Shown: piece by piece, positions 1 through 20,807 of the stretch
Layout: every line of letters begins with the position of its first letter
How positions within the stretch are numbered: the first letter of the stretch is position 1
IMG/VR virus record: IMGVR_UViG_3300020118_000024
Span: 1-21,415 of that record
Length of the DNA: 21,415 nt
Strand: one strand, 5' to 3'
Origin: a virus
Made by a program: the position numbers and the translations under genes
Notes under the pieces: generated by a model
What the model saw: the letters and a program-made list of their open reading frames with translations, nothing else
The model's database searches: none
Told to the model about the DNA's origin: nothing

Positions 1-246
1 ATCGATAAAATAAGCTGGTTTTGTCGGATCTATTGGTGTGATAGTTTCGGTTTCTGTTTCGGTATTAATAGAATCATTTTCGACAATCGAAGTTTCTTTT
101 TTAACATTACTTTCGATTTCCTTATTTTCCAAAACAATCTCTTTTTTTTCAGCTATTAAGGATTCTTTTGTGGTTGATTTTTCAGTTTTTCTTGCTCCAC
201 ATGAACACAGAATAGATATTAATAAAATCAAAAATAAGTTTTTCAT
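1..246 (-). CDS. Lipoprotein after the endolysin, candidate spanin (3' end outside window)
   Basis: The reading frame is open for 82 codons from ATG at 246 to the window edge, so the C-terminus is missing. The N-terminus is a clear lipoprotein signal: a short basic start (MKN), a hydrophobic run (LFLILLISIL), then a lipobox LCSC with the modified Cys at residue 16 followed by Gly. The mature part is Lys/Glu/Thr-rich, hydrophilic and without another membrane segment. Its ATG overlaps the endolysin stop by 4 nt (ATGA), so the two are translationally coupled. A small outer-membrane lipoprotein directly after an endolysin in a phage of a Gram-negative host fits an Rz1-like or unimolecular spanin, which disrupts or fuses the outer membrane in the last step of lysis. 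The lipoprotein call is read from sequence. The spanin role is inferred from position. A u-spanin would need a C-terminal transmembrane helix, which would lie beyond the window. Confidence 0.75.
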   Translation of the reverse strand, partial: MKNLFLILLISILCSCGARKTEKSTTKESLIAEKKEIVLENKEIESNVKKETSIVENDSINTETETETITPIDPTKPAYFID

Positions 247-824
247 ATGCCTAGTTTTTTCTTCCATTTATTTGTAAATTCTTTCCTGTGAGCATATCCG
301 ATTGCATCTCCTGCTTTTGGCGTATGATGTCCGATATTAATCATGTCACTCACGCCGTCGCAGTCGTCTTTATCCGCATATGCGTTAAGCCCCGCAGCTT
401 TCCAATAATGGAGCGCAGCAATTAAAGAGTTTCCTTCAGTCAGGATTAGATCGGGATTTCCAACAAAATCGATACCAGTTTCTTTTTTTAATATTTCATA
501 CTGGCTTTTCCCGGTAGTTCCTATAAAACCTCCAGATCTATAACGCCAGCCATCTCCAGAAGCCTCATCACCATTACCCATTCTGTTAGCGTAGATTCTA
601 TTTGCGATAGCCTGCTGGTTATGTGCGTATTTATTGCAAAGTTCGATAGTAGGAAAATACTTTTTAAATAAAGTACCTAAAACCTCAGGGCGATAATTCT
701 CATTCTCTCTAACAAGTTTAAAACCGCTCTCATTTTCACATTGCCCCATAAAATGGGCTTTTCTAAGTGGCGTATTTACACCCCATGTGTCGAAAAGAGT
801 TTTATATTTTTCGTATAGCTCCAT
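243..824 (-). CDS. GH19-family endolysin (chitinase-like muramidase)
   Basis: A 193-aa protein with the hallmarks of phage GH19 lysozyme/chitinase-fold endolysins, which cleave the peptidoglycan glycan strand. The segment HFMGQCENESGF (residues 24-35) matches the usual AQ..HESG box, with E32 as likely general acid. E40 in RENENY aligns with the second acidic residue. ANRIYANRMGNGDEASGDGW (74-93) is the family's central signature. The box after it reads SGGFIGTTGKSQY (97-109), where the usual form is GRGxIQLTGRxNY, so some substrate-cleft residues differ. There is no signal peptide or membrane segment, so it would need a holin to leave the cytoplasm. It lies 2 nt after the 71-aa holin-like gene, and its stop overlaps the lipoprotein start. 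The length is normal for a single catalytic domain without a wall-binding module. Confidence 0.9.
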   Translation of the reverse strand: MELYEKYKTLFDTWGVNTPLRKAHFMGQCENESGFKLVRENENYRPEVLGTLFKKYFPTIELCNKYAHNQQAIANRIYANRMGNGDEASGDGWRYRSGGFIGTTGKSQYEILKKETGIDFVGNPDLILTEGNSLIAALHYWKAAGLNAYADKDDCDGVSDMINIGHHTPKAGDAIGYAHRKEFTNKWKKKLGI

Positions 825-826
825 AA

Positions 827-1042
827 CTATTGTGCGGGTGTAGTTTCTCCCTGCATGAGTTTCTTGATTAAGTAAGCTGCGCCTCCGGCAATAGCCAAAT
901 GTCCTAAATTTTGCCAGTCTAAGTCAATGCTTCCGCTTTCAAATACTTTTAATACGACGCCAATGACTGGCGTGCCTATTGCCATGGCTAATCCGTGCAG
1001 GGCGTCTTTCCAATTTAGTTTCAAAAATTCTGATTCTTTCAT
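827..1042 (-). CDS. Small two-helix membrane protein, probable holin
   Basis: A 71-aa protein with two predicted membrane segments, about residues 15-34 (LHGLAMAIGTPVIGVVLKVF) and 46-60 (LGHLAIAGGAAYLI). They are separated by a short acidic loop, with a basic residue pair after the second segment. The N-terminus FLKLNWKD resembles short proteins found before endolysins in Flavobacteriia phages. It lies 2 nt before the endolysin and 3 nt after the 141-aa membrane protein. Small size, two helices and position favour a class II holin, which permeabilises the inner membrane to release the endolysin. The 141-aa gene could be the true holin and this one an antiholin or accessory protein. Sequence alone does not decide this. 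Confidence 0.65.
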   Translation of the reverse strand: MKESEFLKLNWKDALHGLAMAIGTPVIGVVLKVFESGSIDLDWQNLGHLAIAGGAAYLIKKLMQGETTPAQ

Positions 1043-1045
1043 AAA

Positions 1046-1471
1046 TTAATTTTTAAGGTTATTGATATTCTCTTTGATACATTTCAATTCAGCTACAAAA
1101 GATTTTATAGCTTCTAAAGTACTTCTGTTGCCCAGTTTTACCCAGTTTCTATCTATAGATTTCGCCTCTTTAAATACCCACATACAGGTAAAGAGTTTAG
1201 ATAAGAAAAGATTAATCCCGAAAAGCTCGTTTTCTAAAATATAGGCATCGAAAAGAAAGCAAAGCAGTATGGTCGATATGTAAAAGGTTAATTTTTTGAA
1301 GATTTTAAGGAACTTTTCAAACTCAAATTCTTCATTTAAAGCCACGTAAAAAACTAAATATACTGCTAAAGACGAATCCACCATTACACAGGCAGAGATT
1401 AGATAGATCAAGCCTTTAACCGGAGCTATAAATGTTAGAAATGAGAGAAGATAAGCAGAGAAAGACTTCAT
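1046..1471 (-). CDS. Phage_holin_4-type (PF05105-like) holin family membrane protein
   Basis: A 141-aa protein with a hydrophobic N-terminal two-thirds: segments around residues 5-45, 60-78 and 84-101, and a charged cytoplasmic-type tail. FIAPVKGLIYLISACVMVDS (14-33) resembles the FLxPIKGLxxxxxxxxxLD opening of the Bacteroidota phage holin family. FKEAKSIDRNWVKLGNRS (100-117) resembles the conserved ExxSIxENxxxxxG motif before the C-terminal tail. The 4-nt overlap with the 137-aa membrane protein upstream (ATGA) and the 3-nt gap to the next holin-like gene place it in the lysis operon. It may form lysis holes in the inner membrane or modulate the smaller holin. The family assignment is from remembered motifs. 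Confidence 0.65.
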   Translation of the reverse strand: MKSFSAYLLSFLTFIAPVKGLIYLISACVMVDSSLAVYLVFYVALNEEFEFEKFLKIFKKLTFYISTILLCFLFDAYILENELFGINLFLSKLFTCMWVFKEAKSIDRNWVKLGNRSTLEAIKSFVAELKCIKENINNLKN

Positions 1472-1881
1472 TTAACGTATTTTAAGTAAAAGGATAAAAC
1501 ATATTTAATAAAAAGCCCAAATAAACCACCAGCATAGAACGTATATACAATAATATCAAAGTGTTCTGGGTTATATCCTGAATATATCAAACAAAAAGTA
1601 GTTATCTGGTCTAGGAAATAAGCATATACAATTGTTTTAGTACACAAACAGGCGCTAAATCGTAAAATACGAAATACAAAGAAGATAGAAATCGTAAGAG
1701 TCGATAGGCTAGATAGCAAAGGGGCATAATAAAAAGCATATTGATTCAAAACTGAATATTCTACTGTATCAAATCGCGATTGTAGAAAGAAGCTAGTTAA
1801 TTCTAAAGCAGTTAAGATAAAAATAGTCGAGAGCATACCTAAATCAAAGAGATCTTTTAGATTGAATTTATTATCTGCCAT
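1468..1881 (-). CDS. Four-helix membrane protein of unknown function in the lysis cassette
   Basis: I do not recognise this 137-aa protein. It has a short hydrophilic N-terminus (MADNKFNLKD) and about four strongly hydrophobic segments, near residues 15-33, 50-70, 80-100 and 110-132. It ends in a basic tail (KYVK), and most of its few charged residues lie in the loops and tails. It starts 6 nt after the 40-aa ORF and its stop overlaps the start of the holin-family gene by 4 nt, which indicates coupled translation with the lysis genes. It could be an antiholin, a third pore-forming component or a superinfection-exclusion protein. None of these is shown by a motif. Confidence 0.7.
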   Translation of the reverse strand: MADNKFNLKDLFDLGMLSTIFILTALELTSFFLQSRFDTVEYSVLNQYAFYYAPLLSSLSTLTISIFFVFRILRFSACLCTKTIVYAYFLDQITTFCLIYSGYNPEHFDIIVYTFYAGGLFGLFIKYVLSFYLKYVK

Positions 1882-1887
1882 TCGACT

Positions 1888-2010
1888 CTATTTTTTTATC
1901 GTTTGATTCGGAGGTTTGATCTCGGAAAAAGGAGAAGAACCTAAAGGTTTTCTTTCAGTAGTAATATTTTTGCCGCTCGGTGCCGGCTGAGTTATCTTAT
2001 TAAAAGCCAT
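1888..2010 (-). CDS. Small Pro/Ser/Lys-rich ORF (40 aa), first gene of the lysis operon
   Basis: An ATG at 2010 opens a 40-codon frame that ends at TAG (1888-1890), 6 nt before the next gene. The start is preceded by AATTTTTAACAA, the A/T-rich ribosome-site style of the other genes here. The peptide starts MAFNKITQPAPSGK, ends TIKK and is hydrophilic and probably disordered, with no membrane segment. A TAnnTTTG-type promoter box lies about 35 nt upstream, just after the terminator of the preceding genes. This makes it the first possible gene of the lysis transcript. The function is unknown. It could be a short regulatory or leader peptide, or not translated at all. Confidence 0.5.
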   Translation of the reverse strand: MAFNKITQPAPSGKNITTERKPLGSSPFSEIKPPNQTIKK

Positions 2011-2712: not shown

Positions 2713-3420
2713 TTACTTTATGTTAGTAGCGGCAGTTGATTGTGTTCCTGATGCAACCATGGTTCCTAGGTTAATGATACCTTGTTTAGTAACATTTGTT
2801 TGTTCAAACAAAGCGTTAAATAAACGAGAGTTTTCATCTCTTTGAGTTTGAATAGCGGTCAACACATTAGTGTTGTTGTTCGTGTTGATGATAGTTGTTT
2901 TTTCATCATCATGTCTACGTCTTTCCTCCACAGAAGCGATTTCCAAAGCGAAAATTCTATCTCTTAGATTTTGTTCGTTGTCAGAGCTGATTTTAGCTAA
3001 AATAGCCGCTGTGTTTGTTCCCGCTTCACGAGAAGCTGCAACTGCAAAAGCGGTAGCCTGCGTACTAAGTTCATTTGTGTTGCGTTCAGCTTGGATAGCT
3101 GCTGCATAATTGCCATCTTTAACGGCATCATTTACAGCAAATAATCCCGCGTTAATTCCACGAAATTCGCCTACGCTCATGTCTTTATGGCGTCCTAATT
3201 CAGCTAGAATATTTGTAGAATTTTGAAGTTCTACAACTTTTGCAGCGATTCCAGAAGCATCCAAATCAGGAGAACCACCATCTCCACCGAACAAACCGCC
3301 TCTATTACGTCCTAGTAAAGAAGCAAGGATAATTCCTTCTAAAATACCACCGCCTCCGAAGCCACCTAATCCAAGACCACCAGCTCCGCCTAATACTTCG
3401 TTTCCACCTGTTGAAATCAT
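2713..3420 (-). CDS. Gly-rich, Ala/Asn-rich phage protein, possibly virion-associated
   Basis: A 235-aa protein in three parts. Residues 1-50 are a Gly-rich segment (GGAGGLGLGGFGGGG, then a hydrophobic EGIILASLLGR and RGGLFGGDGG). Residues 55-130 are an Ala-rich helical region (SGIAAKVVELQNSTNILAEL and following). The rest is long helical with charged patches (NLRDRIFALEIASVEERRR) and an Asn/Thr stretch (TTIINTNNNTN). This layout, a Gly-rich LLGRxxGGLFG start followed by a long Ala/Asn/Gln helix, recurs in unannotated phage proteins I have seen, but no function is assigned. Its start codon lies at the edge of a nested inverted repeat (3423-3465), and a terminator follows the stop. It could be an internal virion protein or a membrane-active protein. 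Confidence 0.75.
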   Translation of the reverse strand: MISTGGNEVLGGAGGLGLGGFGGGGILEGIILASLLGRNRGGLFGGDGGSPDLDASGIAAKVVELQNSTNILAELGRHKDMSVGEFRGINAGLFAVNDAVKDGNYAAAIQAERNTNELSTQATAFAVAASREAGTNTAAILAKISSDNEQNLRDRIFALEIASVEERRRHDDEKTTIINTNNNTNVLTAIQTQRDENSRLFNALFEQTNVTKQGIINLGTMVASGTQSTAATNIK

Positions 3421-3471: not shown

Positions 3472-3747
3472 TTAATTAAAGTGTTGCTCTATGCGACAAT
3501 GACCTGCAAGAGTTAAAGCAGTAGTAACCAAACTAGCTAAAGTAACCCCCAAAGCCCTTGCGAGCTTTGAGAGAGTTGCTAATTTTGGATTTTCGACCTC
3601 CATATTTTCAAGCCGTGAAATAGTGGTATTTTCAACTTCTGCCAGAGCGGCTAAATGCGATTGAGATAATCCCTGCTCAAATCTGTTTTTACGTAGATTC
3701 TTAGAAATATCGGCTATTGCGTTTAAATGCATGGTATTGTTTTTCAT
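3472..3747 (-). CDS. Cro/C1-type (XRE) helix-turn-helix regulator
   Basis: A 91-aa DNA-binding protein of the HTH_3 type. With ATG at 3747 as residue 1, the core runs from about residue 14 to 75. LSQSHLAALAEVENTTISRLENME (27-50) spans the two HTH helices, and LATLSKLARALGVTLASLV is the typical closing helix pair. A start at TTG 3753, directly after the fibre stop, is possible, but ATG 3747 preceded by TTTTAATTGATT fits the local ribosome-site style better. It follows the tail fibre gene with a few nt between them and precedes a nested inverted repeat that could be its operator. A small regulator inside the structural region is unexpected. It might control the accessory/lysis genes or its own expression. 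The HTH fold is clear; the target is inferred. Confidence 0.85.
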   Translation of the reverse strand: MKNNTMHLNAIADISKNLRKNRFEQGLSQSHLAALAEVENTTISRLENMEVENPKLATLSKLARALGVTLASLVTTALTLAGHCRIEQHFN

Positions 3748-3753
3748 AATCAA

Positions 3754-5778
3754 TTAAAATGTAGATAAAGCAGTACGCTGCCATGTATTTGTAGCCACAC
3801 ATACATAAATAAAGCCGTTAACAAATCTTATTTCTCCTAAAGTTCCTGTACTAGAACTTGTAGCCGGAGCGGAATTTAATGCCGAAAGATTAAACTGGGT
3901 TGCAACTACTGAACCTCCTACCTGCACTCTATTAATGTTATCATCTGTAAAAGTTCCACCGTTTTGAAGTATAAGGTTTCCTGTTGTTGGTGAAAATTGG
4001 CCTTTCTTTGAGTTTCCTAGCCTTATTTCTATAGCCCCGCTTACAAGGGGAGCGTTTAAGTAGCATGTAGAGGCACTCGCAGCAAAAAAGTAATTATTAG
4101 CAGAGGGTGATGCAACTGAATAAAGCAAGGAATTCCCAGGTACGCCCCCATCATTAATTGTGAAATTCGAAGTATTCCAGGTAGCTTTTAATACATTATT
4201 CTTAACCCCTGTAAAAGCACCATTTGTAAAAGTTGGGCTTAAATCCAAACAAGTTAAATCGTCATTATTTGCAGCGGCAGTTAACGTATTTGTAAAAGAG
4301 TTGCCTTTCGCACTTGCGGAAACTGCCGTAAGTGCGCCATTTGAGCGTAAAGTTCCTGCGGTAATTTTACCGTTACCATCAACTAATAAAGTATTAGCCC
4401 CCGAACCGTTCTGCCCAACTAAAATATTATCTGTATCAGTAGCAGAACCGCGTTTAAGTGCAAGAGCCCCAAGTGCTGTGGTAGTAATTAATTGTGGAGA
4501 GGTTGAGTTACCATAAACACTCTGTATTGTTTCGGCGCCAACATTTACTTTACTATTAATTTGATTCTGTAGCTTACCTAAAGCGCCCAAAATACTATCT
4601 GTCGCAAGAATAGTCCCCCCGATAGCGGTAGATAACCCCGTAAGCAGGGTAGATAACCCTCTAAGCGCGGTATAATATAGATTTGATGAGCCTTCGGTAA
4701 CTTGATCTGAGGTATAGTCTCCTGATTGAGCCGTTACGTTACCCGTTCTACCGAATACCGAAGATACAGCATCAGTATTGTCAACCTTACCCCAGTTAGC
4801 TCCATCTGATATTATCCAGTCTCCTGTATTTAATTTAAGTCCGAAGCGAATAGTTTCGTTTGCCCCAGTACAAATATAATAATGCCCCTTAGTCTCTGCT
4901 GTAGTTAAGGCAGGAGAATTAGCAACTTGATCCCAAAGCCCTTGATATTGAACATTCCCTAAAACGGCGTCATTCATATTTGCTAGAGGAACTTTTGCGT
5001 TACCATCTAATCCAGCATAACCATTTACCGCCCCTTTATTAGAGGTAGATTCCTTAGCGTTCCAGATTCCTTTCTCCGTATCTGTTGCAAATCTATGCGC
5101 AGCATCTTGCGTAATATTCGAAGGGTTTGTGGTATCCGTATTTGGCACATTGCCTAAACCTACCTGAGCTTTAGTTACCGAATGAGGGTTATTTATAGCA
5201 GTTAAATGGCTTAATAAAGTGGTACCGTTTGTAGTTACCCAATCATAGGCAGTCTTGAAAAAAGACCAATCTGTAGAAAGCAAATAACCATCATTAGAAG
5301 CAGAAGCTGCGCCTAAAGTAGATTCTATTTCTGCTTTTGTCATTGTCCCTCCGCCGCCAGTACTTTCCGACACAACTATGGTGTAATTTACAATTTCAGT
5401 TTCATTTGTTATTGTTATACTATCAGGAGTAGGGTTTACTGGCTGGTGCTTAGTAATAATCCAAGTACCTGAAAGTATCCCCGAAGTATTATCTCCAATA
5501 GTCACGAAAATATCGAAAGTATAAGTCCCTTCTTTTGCTAAAATAAGAGCGGGATTAATTATGAAAACTCCCGTAGCAGGATCCGGAATAATAATAGTAC
5601 TATCTGCTGTTTTAAAACTGAAATTCTCTGAACCATTGAAAATTTTAAAAGCCGCCACTATTGAGGCGCCTGTTAAATTCACAGGCACATCTACCCCAGC
5701 ATCATTTTTAATTAAGTATGTTACACTCATACCTGCCCAAGTTGTCTTACTTTGGTGGTCTTGTATTATGTTAGCCAT
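3754..5778 (-). CDS. Tail fibre / receptor-binding protein with BppU-like N-terminus
   Basis: A 674-aa protein. Residues about 10-112 form a beta domain resembling the N-terminal domain of baseplate upper proteins (BppU_N): a VPVNLTGASIVAAFK strand pair, then PDPATGVFIINP and GTYTFDIFV. Residues 191-213 carry the phage-fibre motif INNPHSVTKAQVGLGNVPNT. Residues 245-407 are a cassette (KGAVNGYAGLDGNAKVP, VFGRTGNVTAQSGDYTSDQV, LATDSILGALGKLQNQI) homologous to the neighbouring fibre. The rest is Ser/Thr/Asn-rich beta sequence ending GFIYVCVATNTWQRTALSTF, a common C-terminal signature of Bacteroidota phage fibres. It probably attaches to the baseplate through its N-terminus and binds the host surface with its C-terminal part. 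No self-cleaving chaperone domain is seen. It starts 9 nt after the 370-aa fibre gene. Confidence 0.85.
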   Translation of the reverse strand: MANIIQDHQSKTTWAGMSVTYLIKNDAGVDVPVNLTGASIVAAFKIFNGSENFSFKTADSTIIIPDPATGVFIINPALILAKEGTYTFDIFVTIGDNTSGILSGTWIITKHQPVNPTPDSITITNETEIVNYTIVVSESTGGGGTMTKAEIESTLGAASASNDGYLLSTDWSFFKTAYDWVTTNGTTLLSHLTAINNPHSVTKAQVGLGNVPNTDTTNPSNITQDAAHRFATDTEKGIWNAKESTSNKGAVNGYAGLDGNAKVPLANMNDAVLGNVQYQGLWDQVANSPALTTAETKGHYYICTGANETIRFGLKLNTGDWIISDGANWGKVDNTDAVSSVFGRTGNVTAQSGDYTSDQVTEGSSNLYYTALRGLSTLLTGLSTAIGGTILATDSILGALGKLQNQINSKVNVGAETIQSVYGNSTSPQLITTTALGALALKRGSATDTDNILVGQNGSGANTLLVDGNGKITAGTLRSNGALTAVSASAKGNSFTNTLTAAANNDDLTCLDLSPTFTNGAFTGVKNNVLKATWNTSNFTINDGGVPGNSLLYSVASPSANNYFFAASASTCYLNAPLVSGAIEIRLGNSKKGQFSPTTGNLILQNGGTFTDDNINRVQVGGSVVATQFNLSALNSAPATSSSTGTLGEIRFVNGFIYVCVATNTWQRTALSTF

Positions 5779-18855: not shown

Positions 18856-19425
18856 CTATTTTATATTCTCAATTGATTTTCTTTTCATTAAATATCCTGC
18901 GAAGTGTAAAAACTTATCAGTCTCCCAATCCAAAACCTGATCAGATTTAGTGAAGTCCCCTACACAGATTAAATCCAGCATCATCATATATCCCGTGTAC
19001 TCTTCTGCAAATTCTCGCCTTAGCTCAGAGCCTTGCGTTTGCTCTCCGGGTAATCCATAGCTTTGAGGGTTATAAACATTCGGAAATCTCTCTTTCAAGG
19101 CTTCCGATTCCTTTCGATATTTCAAAAGTACCGCTTTTAGATCTTCTATGTAGAACGATTCTAAATTATTTTTATTTAGGTAAAGCTTAACAAAGGCTTC
19201 GAAGTTTTCATCTACTAAATAATTTTCTAAATCAATGAAATCCCCTACCCGGCATTTAGCTAGAGATGGAATAGTTTTGAAACGGAGTTTACCTTCGCGA
19301 AGTAACGCAGCTTCTATCTCTTGCATATTGGCTTTGCGCCCAAATATGCCTTGCACGTCCTGTTCTGTTAGATCCGTGCCAAATGCTTTTAAAGCTTCAT
19401 ATTGTGCTAAATTTATCCTACGCAT
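18856..19425 (-). CDS. Conserved-looking phage protein of unknown function (189 aa)
   Basis: I do not recognise a named family. The N-terminal half is helical (AQYEALKAFGTDLTEQDVQG), then AKCRVGDFIDLENYLVDENF (56-75) resembles a GxFIDLEN stretch seen in Bacteroidota phage proteins. The C-terminus DWETDKFLHFAGYLMKRKSI (167-186) is amphipathic. No catalytic motif is seen. It overlaps the end of the terminase gene by 13 nt. It could be a tail assembly chaperone or adaptor. Its distance from the tape measure gene argues against a classic chaperone. Confidence 0.65.
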   Translation of the reverse strand: MRRINLAQYEALKAFGTDLTEQDVQGIFGRKANMQEIEAALLREGKLRFKTIPSLAKCRVGDFIDLENYLVDENFEAFVKLYLNKNNLESFYIEDLKAVLLKYRKESEALKERFPNVYNPQSYGLPGEQTQGSELRREFAEEYTGYMMMLDLICVGDFTKSDQVLDWETDKFLHFAGYLMKRKSIENIK

Positions 19426-20807
19426 ATTGTTCTGGATTTACCTCCATTAATGAAGGCTGAGTATTCTTTTCTAAACATCGTGCAGCAAATATAACGCAAA
19501 GTATCTGATGCGTGTCCGAACTCTTGATAGCTGGCGCCCGTTTCTTTATTCTTAATTACTTTCTTATCCATGCCCCCGTCTTCATTCTCTTGCGCATATT
19601 GGTAGTCATAGATAGAGCCTGCGCAATTCTTACCTATTGCTAACTGTCCTTCTGCAAACATATTATTAACAAATAGCTTCGACATTACTACACTCGGATT
19701 CTTTACTTCTATTTTGAACTGGGGACGGTAAACGGCTAAATATCCAGCTATCAATGAATAAAAGTTTGCACCCTTCTCAAGCTTTACGTCTTTCTTATTT
19801 GAGGTAGCATCGCCATAAACGAACAACCCGGAACGGTGTGCCAAATATCGCTCTGAGAATACTTGGCAAGTATGTTTTAAAGTATTCTTTGGATCTGGTA
19901 ACATGATCTCGTCTATCTGTGTTAGTACATCATTATGAAGCTGCCATACATTGCAAGTTAAATAAGGCTGTACGTTTTCATCAAAGGTTAAGTGCAAAGG
20001 TAATTCTGGGCGATAAGCGGTATTAAGTGTATTGCGGTTAACATCGAAGTCTTTAAAGAATTCGCCACCTGTGCGGAGTTTACCCCAATTACCCATGGCG
20101 TAGATTTGATAGTATGCATTGTCGCTTATTCTATCCTTCTCGAAGTCGTCAATCGTATGCTGATCAACAAACTTTCCCCCGACTATAAACTCGTTATCAA
20201 GATAGCAGGTTTTCAAAATAACCATATTGCCTGTAGCGTTTATTTGCTTTTGTTGTATAGTGGTCGGTAATTCCTTGAAGATTTCTTTGTCGAATATTTC
20301 TTTTTTAATAAAAGAGTTTTCCGAAACTGGGTTAAATATCCCGATAATCTGCTGCCCAACTTTACCTCTTAAACGTTTTCTAACTTGTTTGAAGTCTGCT
20401 AATTCAAATTGATTAAGCTCTTCCATACAGATTTTTTTAAAGCCCGTAAGCCCTTTGATCTTCTCTGAGTCATCTAAGCCTTTGAATACCGTATAGCTTC
20501 CGGTTATTTTGCATTTGATAAAGTTCTGCTGGATTATGAAGTAATCACTCAGCTCCCAATCTGAAATTATCTGTTTGAAATCGGCGAAAATTGAATCTTT
20601 TATATCTACCGAGTATTTACGAAAGATCAGAGTGTTATTAGCGTTGCCTTGAAGCATATACAAAATATCCCATTGGACAAAAGAATACGTCTTAGACGAA
20701 GAAGAACCTCCGTAAATAAACAAAAACCTTACAGAATTATCCTGTAAGGTTTTATCTATTTCGAAGTAGATTTTAGTAAAAAAGTCTTCGTCTATTTCTA
20801 ACTCCAT
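19413..20807 (-). CDS. terL: Large terminase subunit (ATPase/nuclease)
   Basis: A 464-aa packaging motor of the Terminase_3/PBSX type. Walker A is YGGSSSSKTYS (32-42). Walker B is KKICMEELNQF (124-134). The ATPase coupling region includes GIFNPVSENSF (156-166). The C-terminal RNase-H-like nuclease contributes likely metal-binding acids D276 (LTFDENVQPY), D333 (FVYGDATSNKK) and D435 (GHASDTLRYI). It pumps DNA into the prohead through the portal and cuts concatemers. It lies after the small terminase and a small ORF. Its start is preceded by TAATTTAA, without Shine-Dalgarno. Length is complete. Confidence 0.95.
   Translation of the reverse strand: MELEIDEDFFTKIYFEIDKTLQDNSVRFLFIYGGSSSSKTYSFVQWDILYMLQGNANNTLIFRKYSVDIKDSIFADFKQIISDWELSDYFIIQQNFIKCKITGSYTVFKGLDDSEKIKGLTGFKKICMEELNQFELADFKQVRKRLRGKVGQQIIGIFNPVSENSFIKKEIFDKEIFKELPTTIQQKQINATGNMVILKTCYLDNEFIVGGKFVDQHTIDDFEKDRISDNAYYQIYAMGNWGKLRTGGEFFKDFDVNRNTLNTAYRPELPLHLTFDENVQPYLTCNVWQLHNDVLTQIDEIMLPDPKNTLKHTCQVFSERYLAHRSGLFVYGDATSNKKDVKLEKGANFYSLIAGYLAVYRPQFKIEVKNPSVVMSKLFVNNMFAEGQLAIGKNCAGSIYDYQYAQENEDGGMDKKVIKNKETGASYQEFGHASDTLRYICCTMFRKEYSAFINGGKSRTICVG

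Follow-up and report, generated by a model that had tools for sequence, protein, structure and literature searches.

For flavophages, a canonical holin and endolysin model of lysis has already been proposed as likely, and a GH19 enzyme was described near potential holins, antiholins and a spanin in Harreka and Nekkels (PubMed Central (PMC) record PMC8776804). In Bacteroidetes phages, 'USP', a term read here as unimolecular spanin, has been reported as the exclusive spanin type (PMC12596118). Here, we examine a block of five genes at one end of IMGVR_UViG_3300020118_000024, a virus record taken in its whole length of 21,415 bases and called the window below. In order of reading, the genes encode a membrane protein (gene A), a holin-family protein (gene B), a small membrane protein (gene C), a GH19-type endolysin and a lipoprotein. 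We interpret them as the canonical holin-endolysin-spanin cassette of a Flavobacteriia virus, in which A would be the dedicated partner of B, with a probability of about 60%. No account of the A-B pair, or of the family phrog_14274 that A matches, was found in the open-access PMC literature, judged by titles and abstracts. Since the canonical flavophage model is published and no account of the pair was found, the cassette as a whole is ordinary, and the recurring pair is a modest new observation. A first-pass annotation of this DNA had called lysis of Bacteroidota hosts little studied: the same literature yielded no bench study, but the flavophage model and the 'USP' report do exist.

All five genes were found on the minus strand, within positions 1881-1, at the sizes announced in the first-pass annotation (Table 1). 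The frames of A and B overlap by 4 nucleotides (nt), as do those of the endolysin and the lipoprotein, while gaps of 3 nt and 2 nt separate B from C and C from the endolysin. The earlier limit of 3 nt holds for the gaps, the overlaps being 4 nt, and the upper limit first given for the block, 2010, is that of a sixth, unlisted open reading frame (ORF) of 40 amino acids (aa). The block appears to be more than a chance assembly, because this tightly packed run combines an endolysin with a protein matching a holin family and one with a lipobox, and because the A-B order is found in six other lineages. The diagnosis of a lysis cassette is likewise borne out by the PF05105 match of B, the GH19/phrog_181 assignment of the endolysin, and comparable blocks in phages of Flavobacterium and Chryseobacterium. 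The host is likely to be flavobacterial, given that the best terminase matches (about 40% identity) are to Flavobacterium phages and that the portal matched only four records at an expectation value (E) of 1e-5, all of them Nonlabens phages.

Genes A and B recur as a pair

Seven distinct A-B pairs were found: in the window, in Chryseobacterium phage MA9V-3, in the Flavobacterium psychrophilum Fpv5 group, and in the IMG/VR contigs L012, L015, L044 and L047 (L numbers designate the loci compared). B directly follows A in all seven, with frames that overlap by 4 nt in the window, 25 nt in L007 (MA9V-3), 34 nt in L012, and 16 nt in each of L010 (Fpv5), L015, L044 and L047. The comparison of gene order in related phages, proposed earlier as a check, shows the order kept in six other lineages. 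A and B are neighbours throughout, and it is the roles of the two proteins that we infer. An A profile, run on ORFs of at least 40 aa in loci L001-L039 and L043-L049, detected A in the window, L007, L010/L011/L013/L046 (Fpv5 group), L012/L048, L015/L043, L044 and L047. As a control, it found 6 of 6 known carriers and none of 4 non-carriers, all virus records; a bacterial positive control was absent.

The window A is only 23-30% identical to the six other A proteins, and as a tblastn query it retrieved one phage, MA9V-3 (E 0.03). With the MA9V-3 A protein (E limit 0.1), 30 phage records were matched, 29 of Flavobacterium and 1 of Chryseobacterium, and the same numbers were obtained with the long-form B of L015 (E limit 0.01); the 29 Flavobacterium records are one close group, RefSeq duplicates included. 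Among the matches listed, all 20 records matching A were also among the 30 matching B. Single-sequence queries of IMG/VR with A, B or C gave no relatives, so that alignment-based queries were required. The latter found L012, L013 and L015, and a long-B scan found the same three plus L044, L045, L047 and L049. In the nearest relatives by structural genes, no A or B was found in the parts covered, namely 22.8 of 34.8 kb for lotta8-1, 21.0 of 35.2 kb for FPSV-S1 and the whole of P12024S.

Wall enzymes of four kinds lie near the pair: GH19 in the window and in L044 (phrog_181, 8.8e-53), NlpC/P60 in Fpv5 gp17 (PF00877, over the cut-off) and, by likeness judged by eye, in L047, a PF11860 muramidase in L012 (9.7e-63), and an amidase_3 with LysM in L015 (1.9e-18). 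In MA9V-3, a weak GH19 match is found beyond the lipoprotein, with one gene between. Fpv5 gp17 (L010 5063-5599, 178 aa) has its NlpC/P60 match, lies between B and a spanin-like lipoprotein, and is annotated 'baseplate hub subunit and tail lysozyme'; from its sequence and place, it is probably the endolysin.

Recent acquisition of A-B, judged by composition, was rejected on the basis of fourfold sites (29/102 versus 836/2817, p 0.83); overall guanine plus cytosine content is 30.5% in A-B and 38.2% in the window. Bacterial genomes were then considered, with at most nine or ten candidates scored per genome among the rows shown. A scan of genome contigs with the short form of B found one Flavobacterium contig. 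For A, 356 pattern matches in genome contigs gave none confirmed, and 397 genomes from the family to which the genome of that Flavobacterium contig belongs contained no confirmed match to the A profile. A was not found in 395 genomes of the class, nor was long B in 299 genomes of the family. Two weak A candidates from the 397 genomes were rejected: that of L039 has a stop in its frame and falls in the gap separating a DnaJ-like from an ABC-transporter-like gene, and that of L040 lies inside a larger unrelated ORF. The absence of A from the bacterial genomes examined would fit phages that do not integrate.

Properties of the A and B proteins

The sole family match of A is phrog_14274, of unknown function (E 4.5e-6, 28.3 bits, residues 7-112), which is also matched by Fpv5 gp15 (1.9e-93) and by the MA9V-3 A protein (1.7e-14). 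Hydropathy gave three clear segments and a weak one (85-99). The AlphaFold model, of low confidence (mean predicted local distance difference test, pLDDT, 64.8), has four helices (8-37, 44-72, 81-102 and 108-136) with only short loops between the membrane segments, so the four helices first attributed to this protein are present in the model, but one of them is weak by hydropathy. No solved relative of A was found by sequence search, and Foldseek with this model against a viral fold library gave nothing at E 0.001. For both A and B, use of the models was limited to helix counts and loop lengths.

B was correctly assigned to a holin family: its match to PF05105 (25.8 bits, E 1.2e-5, residues 14-130) is above the Pfam cut-off of 22.2 bits. 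Four hydrophobic segments were seen with hydropathy windows of 15 as well as 19. The protein shares 37% identity with Muminvirus gp64, which is recorded under the same Pfam family and encoded directly before an amidase. The B model (pLDDT 59.5) had no Foldseek match at E 0.001 in the viral library, and the sole sequence match to a solved structure (E 0.91) was ignored. The window B belongs to a short form, and its only links to the long form are PF05105 and an E..SI motif that the alignment shows in both.

The endolysin and gene C

A GH19 endolysin devoid of signal peptide had been predicted, and the GH19 assignment is borne out by phrog_181 (lysis, E 5.7e-54) and by five solved relatives at E 1e-11 or better, including PWe1 endolysin (1.1e-27) and 4ok7, though not by Pfam PF00182 (17.3 bits, under the 25.5 cut-off). 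A single-sequence query of IMG/VR with this protein gave two relatives. Hydropathy detected no hydrophobic segment, and neither a signal peptide nor a membrane segment is present; a hole would therefore be needed for the enzyme to reach the wall. Residues E32 and E40 align with E64 and E73 of the 4ok7 chain (counted by hand), which we take to be the catalytic glutamate pair of GH19. In the motif RGRG.(I/L)Q.TG..N, whose glutamine and asparagine presumably have a functional role in GH19, the window endolysin reads YRSGGFIGTTGKSQY and keeps neither residue. All 11 other phage proteins in the alignment, a small choice from 921 records, have both residues, and in the solved relatives shown the glutamine is kept in 5 of 5 and the asparagine in 4 of 5. 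The near-invariant stretch RGRG.IQ.TG..NY, at window positions 489-542 on the minus strand (GH19 residues 95-112), reads RSGGFIGTTGKSQY, while it is intact in L008, at 58% identity the closest relative found. Because the motif glutamine, kept in relatives, is replaced, the activity of the endolysin could be reduced or altered.

Gene C had been described as a two-helix protein. One segment is clear (15-33), but the second (49-63) is marginal, with a hydropathy of 1.31 at a window of 15 and below 1.2 at a window of 19. The loop is acidic (0 K/R, 3 D/E), and the C-terminal part has 2 K/R and 1 D/E. No convincing family was found in PHROG or Pfam, and no relative in the phage, IMG/VR or locus ORF searches. 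In the 397 genomes mentioned above, two weak matches to C were both inside multi-segment transporter-like ORFs and were rejected. From its sequence, C is a candidate holin-like or accessory protein.

The lipoprotein and the outer membrane

The last gene starts with MKNLFLILLISILCSC, a lipoprotein signal as judged by eye. The lipoprotein announced earlier is present, but incomplete, as the record ends inside the gene after 82 aa. In the 66 visible residues after the lipobox there is no cysteine, the remaining part being beyond the record. Elsewhere, lipoproteins of lysis blocks have a C-terminal membrane segment in 11b, MA9V-3, Fpv5, L047, L014 and L017, and in MA9V-3, Fpv5 and L047 they share the block with A-B. 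Ten lipoproteins were compared, all chosen for having a lipobox and a C-terminal segment; a simple lipobox pattern missed that of MA9V-3 and matched the wrong place in L019. Among 58 known unimolecular spanins, none has a cysteine after the lipobox, according to PMC6139136. Based on its position, on the ten selected counterparts and on the published 'USP' statement, we consider that the window lipoprotein is probably the start of a unimolecular spanin.

Other arrangements were seen beside lysis genes. Proteins with an N-terminal segment and a beta-rich-looking C-terminal end, closing in or near F, are encoded in L012 (6009-6707), L045 (7400-7834) and L005 (4533-5111), and the L012 protein matched PF20647 (DUF6808); these proteins possibly tie the inner to the outer membrane by another route. 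On the 168-kb contig L009 (4196-4890 and 5498-5884), an Rz-like arrangement of two genes, for a 141-aa protein with N-terminal segments followed by a lipoprotein of 90 aa, stands in series with GH19 and PF11351 GTA_holin_3TM proteins.

A model for lysis and its alternatives

In the canonical reading, A and B would be made late in infection from one message, with translation coupled via the overlapping frames. B, a PF05105 holin, would at a defined moment open the inner membrane, and the GH19 enzyme, without an export signal, would pass the hole and cut peptidoglycan. Disruption of the outer membrane would follow, brought about by the lipoprotein as a unimolecular spanin anchored there and, in its counterparts, also in the inner membrane through a C-terminal segment. 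A would bind B in the membrane and set the triggering moment, C being an optional helper. This antiholin-like role of A in timing is held tentatively, at somewhat less than even odds.

Several observations weigh against this picture. Five of the seven IMG/VR long-B loci have A, but L045 and L049 do not, even in their whole records, and in L049 an unrelated 117-aa membrane protein occupies the place of A. A is also absent from all 25 short-B loci other than the window, many of which are near copies and one of which (L038) is uninformative, its sequence ending just upstream of B. Nine short-B loci were read gene by gene, and a wall enzyme lies directly after B in 8 of them, the other (L026) ending there; the L014 enzyme was recognised by Pfam, the others visually or from their resemblance to the Muminvirus amidase, which is annotated. 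Given its absence from two of the seven IMG/VR loci with long B and from the 25 short-B loci, A is, by gene content, not indispensable to B. Because B occurs without A, mostly directly before a wall enzyme, it seems to be a self-sufficient holin, and A a partner that may be lacking or exchanged. Of six long B proteins, two were tested against PF05105: that of MA9V-3 is below the cut-off (18.5 bits, E 2.2e-3) and Fpv5 gp16 has no match. Profile comparison of the two forms gave E 0.12, and a hidden Markov model of each form misses the other. As for the lipoprotein, the gene is cut off at position 1, leaving the C-terminus beyond the record, and its 19.7 bits against a profile (11b, L017, L019, L038, L029) were equalled or exceeded by 24 of 2000 shuffles that kept the signal peptide. 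A cysteine follows the lipobox in two of the ten compared lipoproteins (L014 and Arctus_1), and no lipoprotein with a C-terminal segment is adjacent in L012, L015 and L044. L012 has instead the protein with an N-terminal segment and the C-terminal DUF6808 match, and L015 and L044 have neither beside the endolysin.

If A and B were two obligatory subunits of one hole (co-holins), the constant gene order and overlapping frames of all seven pairs would be well accounted for, as they suggest production in step. The several membrane segments of A and its short loops in the low-confidence model also agree with this, and mycobacteriophage LysF1a and LysF1b are both required for efficient lysis (PMC13056207). 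Yet B-like genes exist without A in L045, L049 and the 25 short-B loci, and B mostly has the wall enzyme directly behind it in the short-B loci read. We regard co-holins as unlikely, and rank them below an antiholin-like A because A has several segments with short loops in that model, overlaps B and is absent from some B-bearing relatives. The earlier proposal of a holin with antiholin or accessory parts stands for a holin with a dedicated partner, A preceding B in all seven pairs, but antiholin and co-holin are not separated, and C has no relative. More radically, A may not be a lysis gene at all and may lie beside B merely through late-gene packing, in keeping with its lack of a family of known function, of a solved relative by sequence, and of a match in the viral fold library at E 0.001 with the low-confidence model. 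We find this improbable, as the same partner, order and overlapping frames persist at 23-30% identity in A, near endolysins of four different families.

About as improbable is that C is the actual holin, as a class II-like hairpin, with A-B serving another purpose, for instance keeping out other phages. C is directly before the endolysin, as are small two-segment proteins in L044, L015, L008 and Immutovirus, but its second segment is marginal, and it is similar neither to the small protein of L044 nor to ORFs of at least 45 aa in L002-L038. Moreover, Fpv5, L047, L012 and MA9V-3 have A-B but lack a gene of this kind between B and the following gene of the block, and the holin-family match belongs to B. 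Finally, the lipoprotein could be the outer-membrane half of a two-component spanin whose partner is past the contig end, or a superinfection-exclusion lipoprotein. Its C-terminus is outside the record, the Fpv5 and L047 counterparts weakly match Cor-like and Rz-like families, and possible two-gene spanin arrangements exist in L009 and L045. Against this stand the C-terminal membrane segments of the six counterparts named above and the report of 'USP' only in Bacteroidetes phages (PMC12596118), which make such a role quite unlikely.

Beyond the window, the preferred reading can be extended, with a confidence that stays under one half. A-B may be a dedicated two-protein holin unit of Bacteroidota phages, inherited as a block and combined with at least four unrelated kinds of wall enzyme. 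A would then be a new holin-partner family, and the position before the holin a slot where unrelated membrane proteins (A, the gp63/Harreka gp15 family, others) alternate. Two similarities among membrane proteins of other phages were recorded separately. Muminvirus gp63 (L002 5643-5960) and Harreka gp15 (L004 4626-4997) are homologous (37%, 2e-19) and unannotated, and they stand before a holin or an endolysin, which is the place of gene A. The several-segment proteins of L014 (5438-5935, before B) and Nekkels (L050 2650-3189, two genes before GH19) have a weak similarity (E 0.003, single comparison).

Feature coordinates and neighbouring genes

The window genes run on the minus strand from the terminase at the high end, through portal and tail genes, to the lysis block at the low end (Table 1). 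Within this late gene run, a 93-aa XRE-type regulator (3472-3753, TTG start, phrog_5823, 2.8e-14) has a tail gene on one side and the lysis block on the other. Between the regulator and the block lies a 235-aa protein with a glycine-rich start and without a convincing family (2713-3420). The proline-rich ORF upstream of A had no family match in the PHROG and Pfam searches; in L009, a 56-aa proline-rich ORF (4029-4199) also precedes the lysis genes.

Table 1. Positions of the lysis genes and other features in the window.
Feature	Coordinates	Strand	Basis
Lipoprotein start, 82 aa visible, lipobox LCSC, probable unimolecular spanin	1..246	-	Translation; counterparts elsewhere
GH19-type endolysin, 193 aa	243..824	-	phrog_181, solved relatives
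Gene C, 71-aa small membrane protein, candidate holin-like or accessory	827..1042	-	Hydropathy
Gene B, 141-aa PF05105 (Phage_holin_4_1) protein, probable holin	1046..1471	-	Pfam match; likeness to Muminvirus gp64
Gene A, 137-aa membrane protein, candidate holin partner	1468..1881	-	phrog_14274 and placement before B in six other lineages
Proline-rich ORF, 40 aa, 6 nt before gene A, perhaps not a gene	1888..2010	-	ORF list
Terminase large subunit	19413..20807	-	PHROG matches

Comparison with known lysis systems

A conserved holin-partner pair would predict which two genes set the time of lysis, and some carriers are isolates that can be grown. All membrane proteins of the block are annotated 'hypothetical' in Fpv5, FPSV-S2 and MA9V-3. 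With the pair recognised, some 30 phage records, counting RefSeq duplicates, could be better annotated; the probable Fpv5 endolysin, listed as a tail lysozyme, is one case.

The unimolecular spanin of T1, gp11, is like the window lipoprotein in its lipoprotein signal and in being the last gene of its cassette (PMC6139136), but its C-terminal membrane segment has no visible equivalent in the window, and the two are likened by features, not sequence. Harreka and Nekkels likewise combine several neighbouring membrane proteins with a GH19 enzyme that lacks a membrane-binding domain, and Nekkels has a potential unimolecular spanin as well (PMC8776804). Neither A nor B was found in the stretches examined of these two phages, of phi19:1, of Immutovirus and of Leeuwenhoekiella phage Arctus_1. 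In Muminvirus tooticki gp62-gp65, a short PF05105 B, 37% identical to that of the window, stands directly before an endolysin, whereas A is absent, the unrelated one-segment gp63 precedes B, and the endolysin is an amidase. MA9V-3 has A, B and a lipoprotein with a C-terminal segment in series; unlike in the window, no endolysin lies between B and the lipoprotein. Fpv5 differs from the window by a long B, an NlpC/P60 wall enzyme, the lack of a C gene and an A protein of 28% identity, but its gp15-gp18 encode A (gp15), B (gp16), the wall enzyme (gp17) and a lipoprotein with a C-terminal segment (gp18) in the same order and with overlapping frames.

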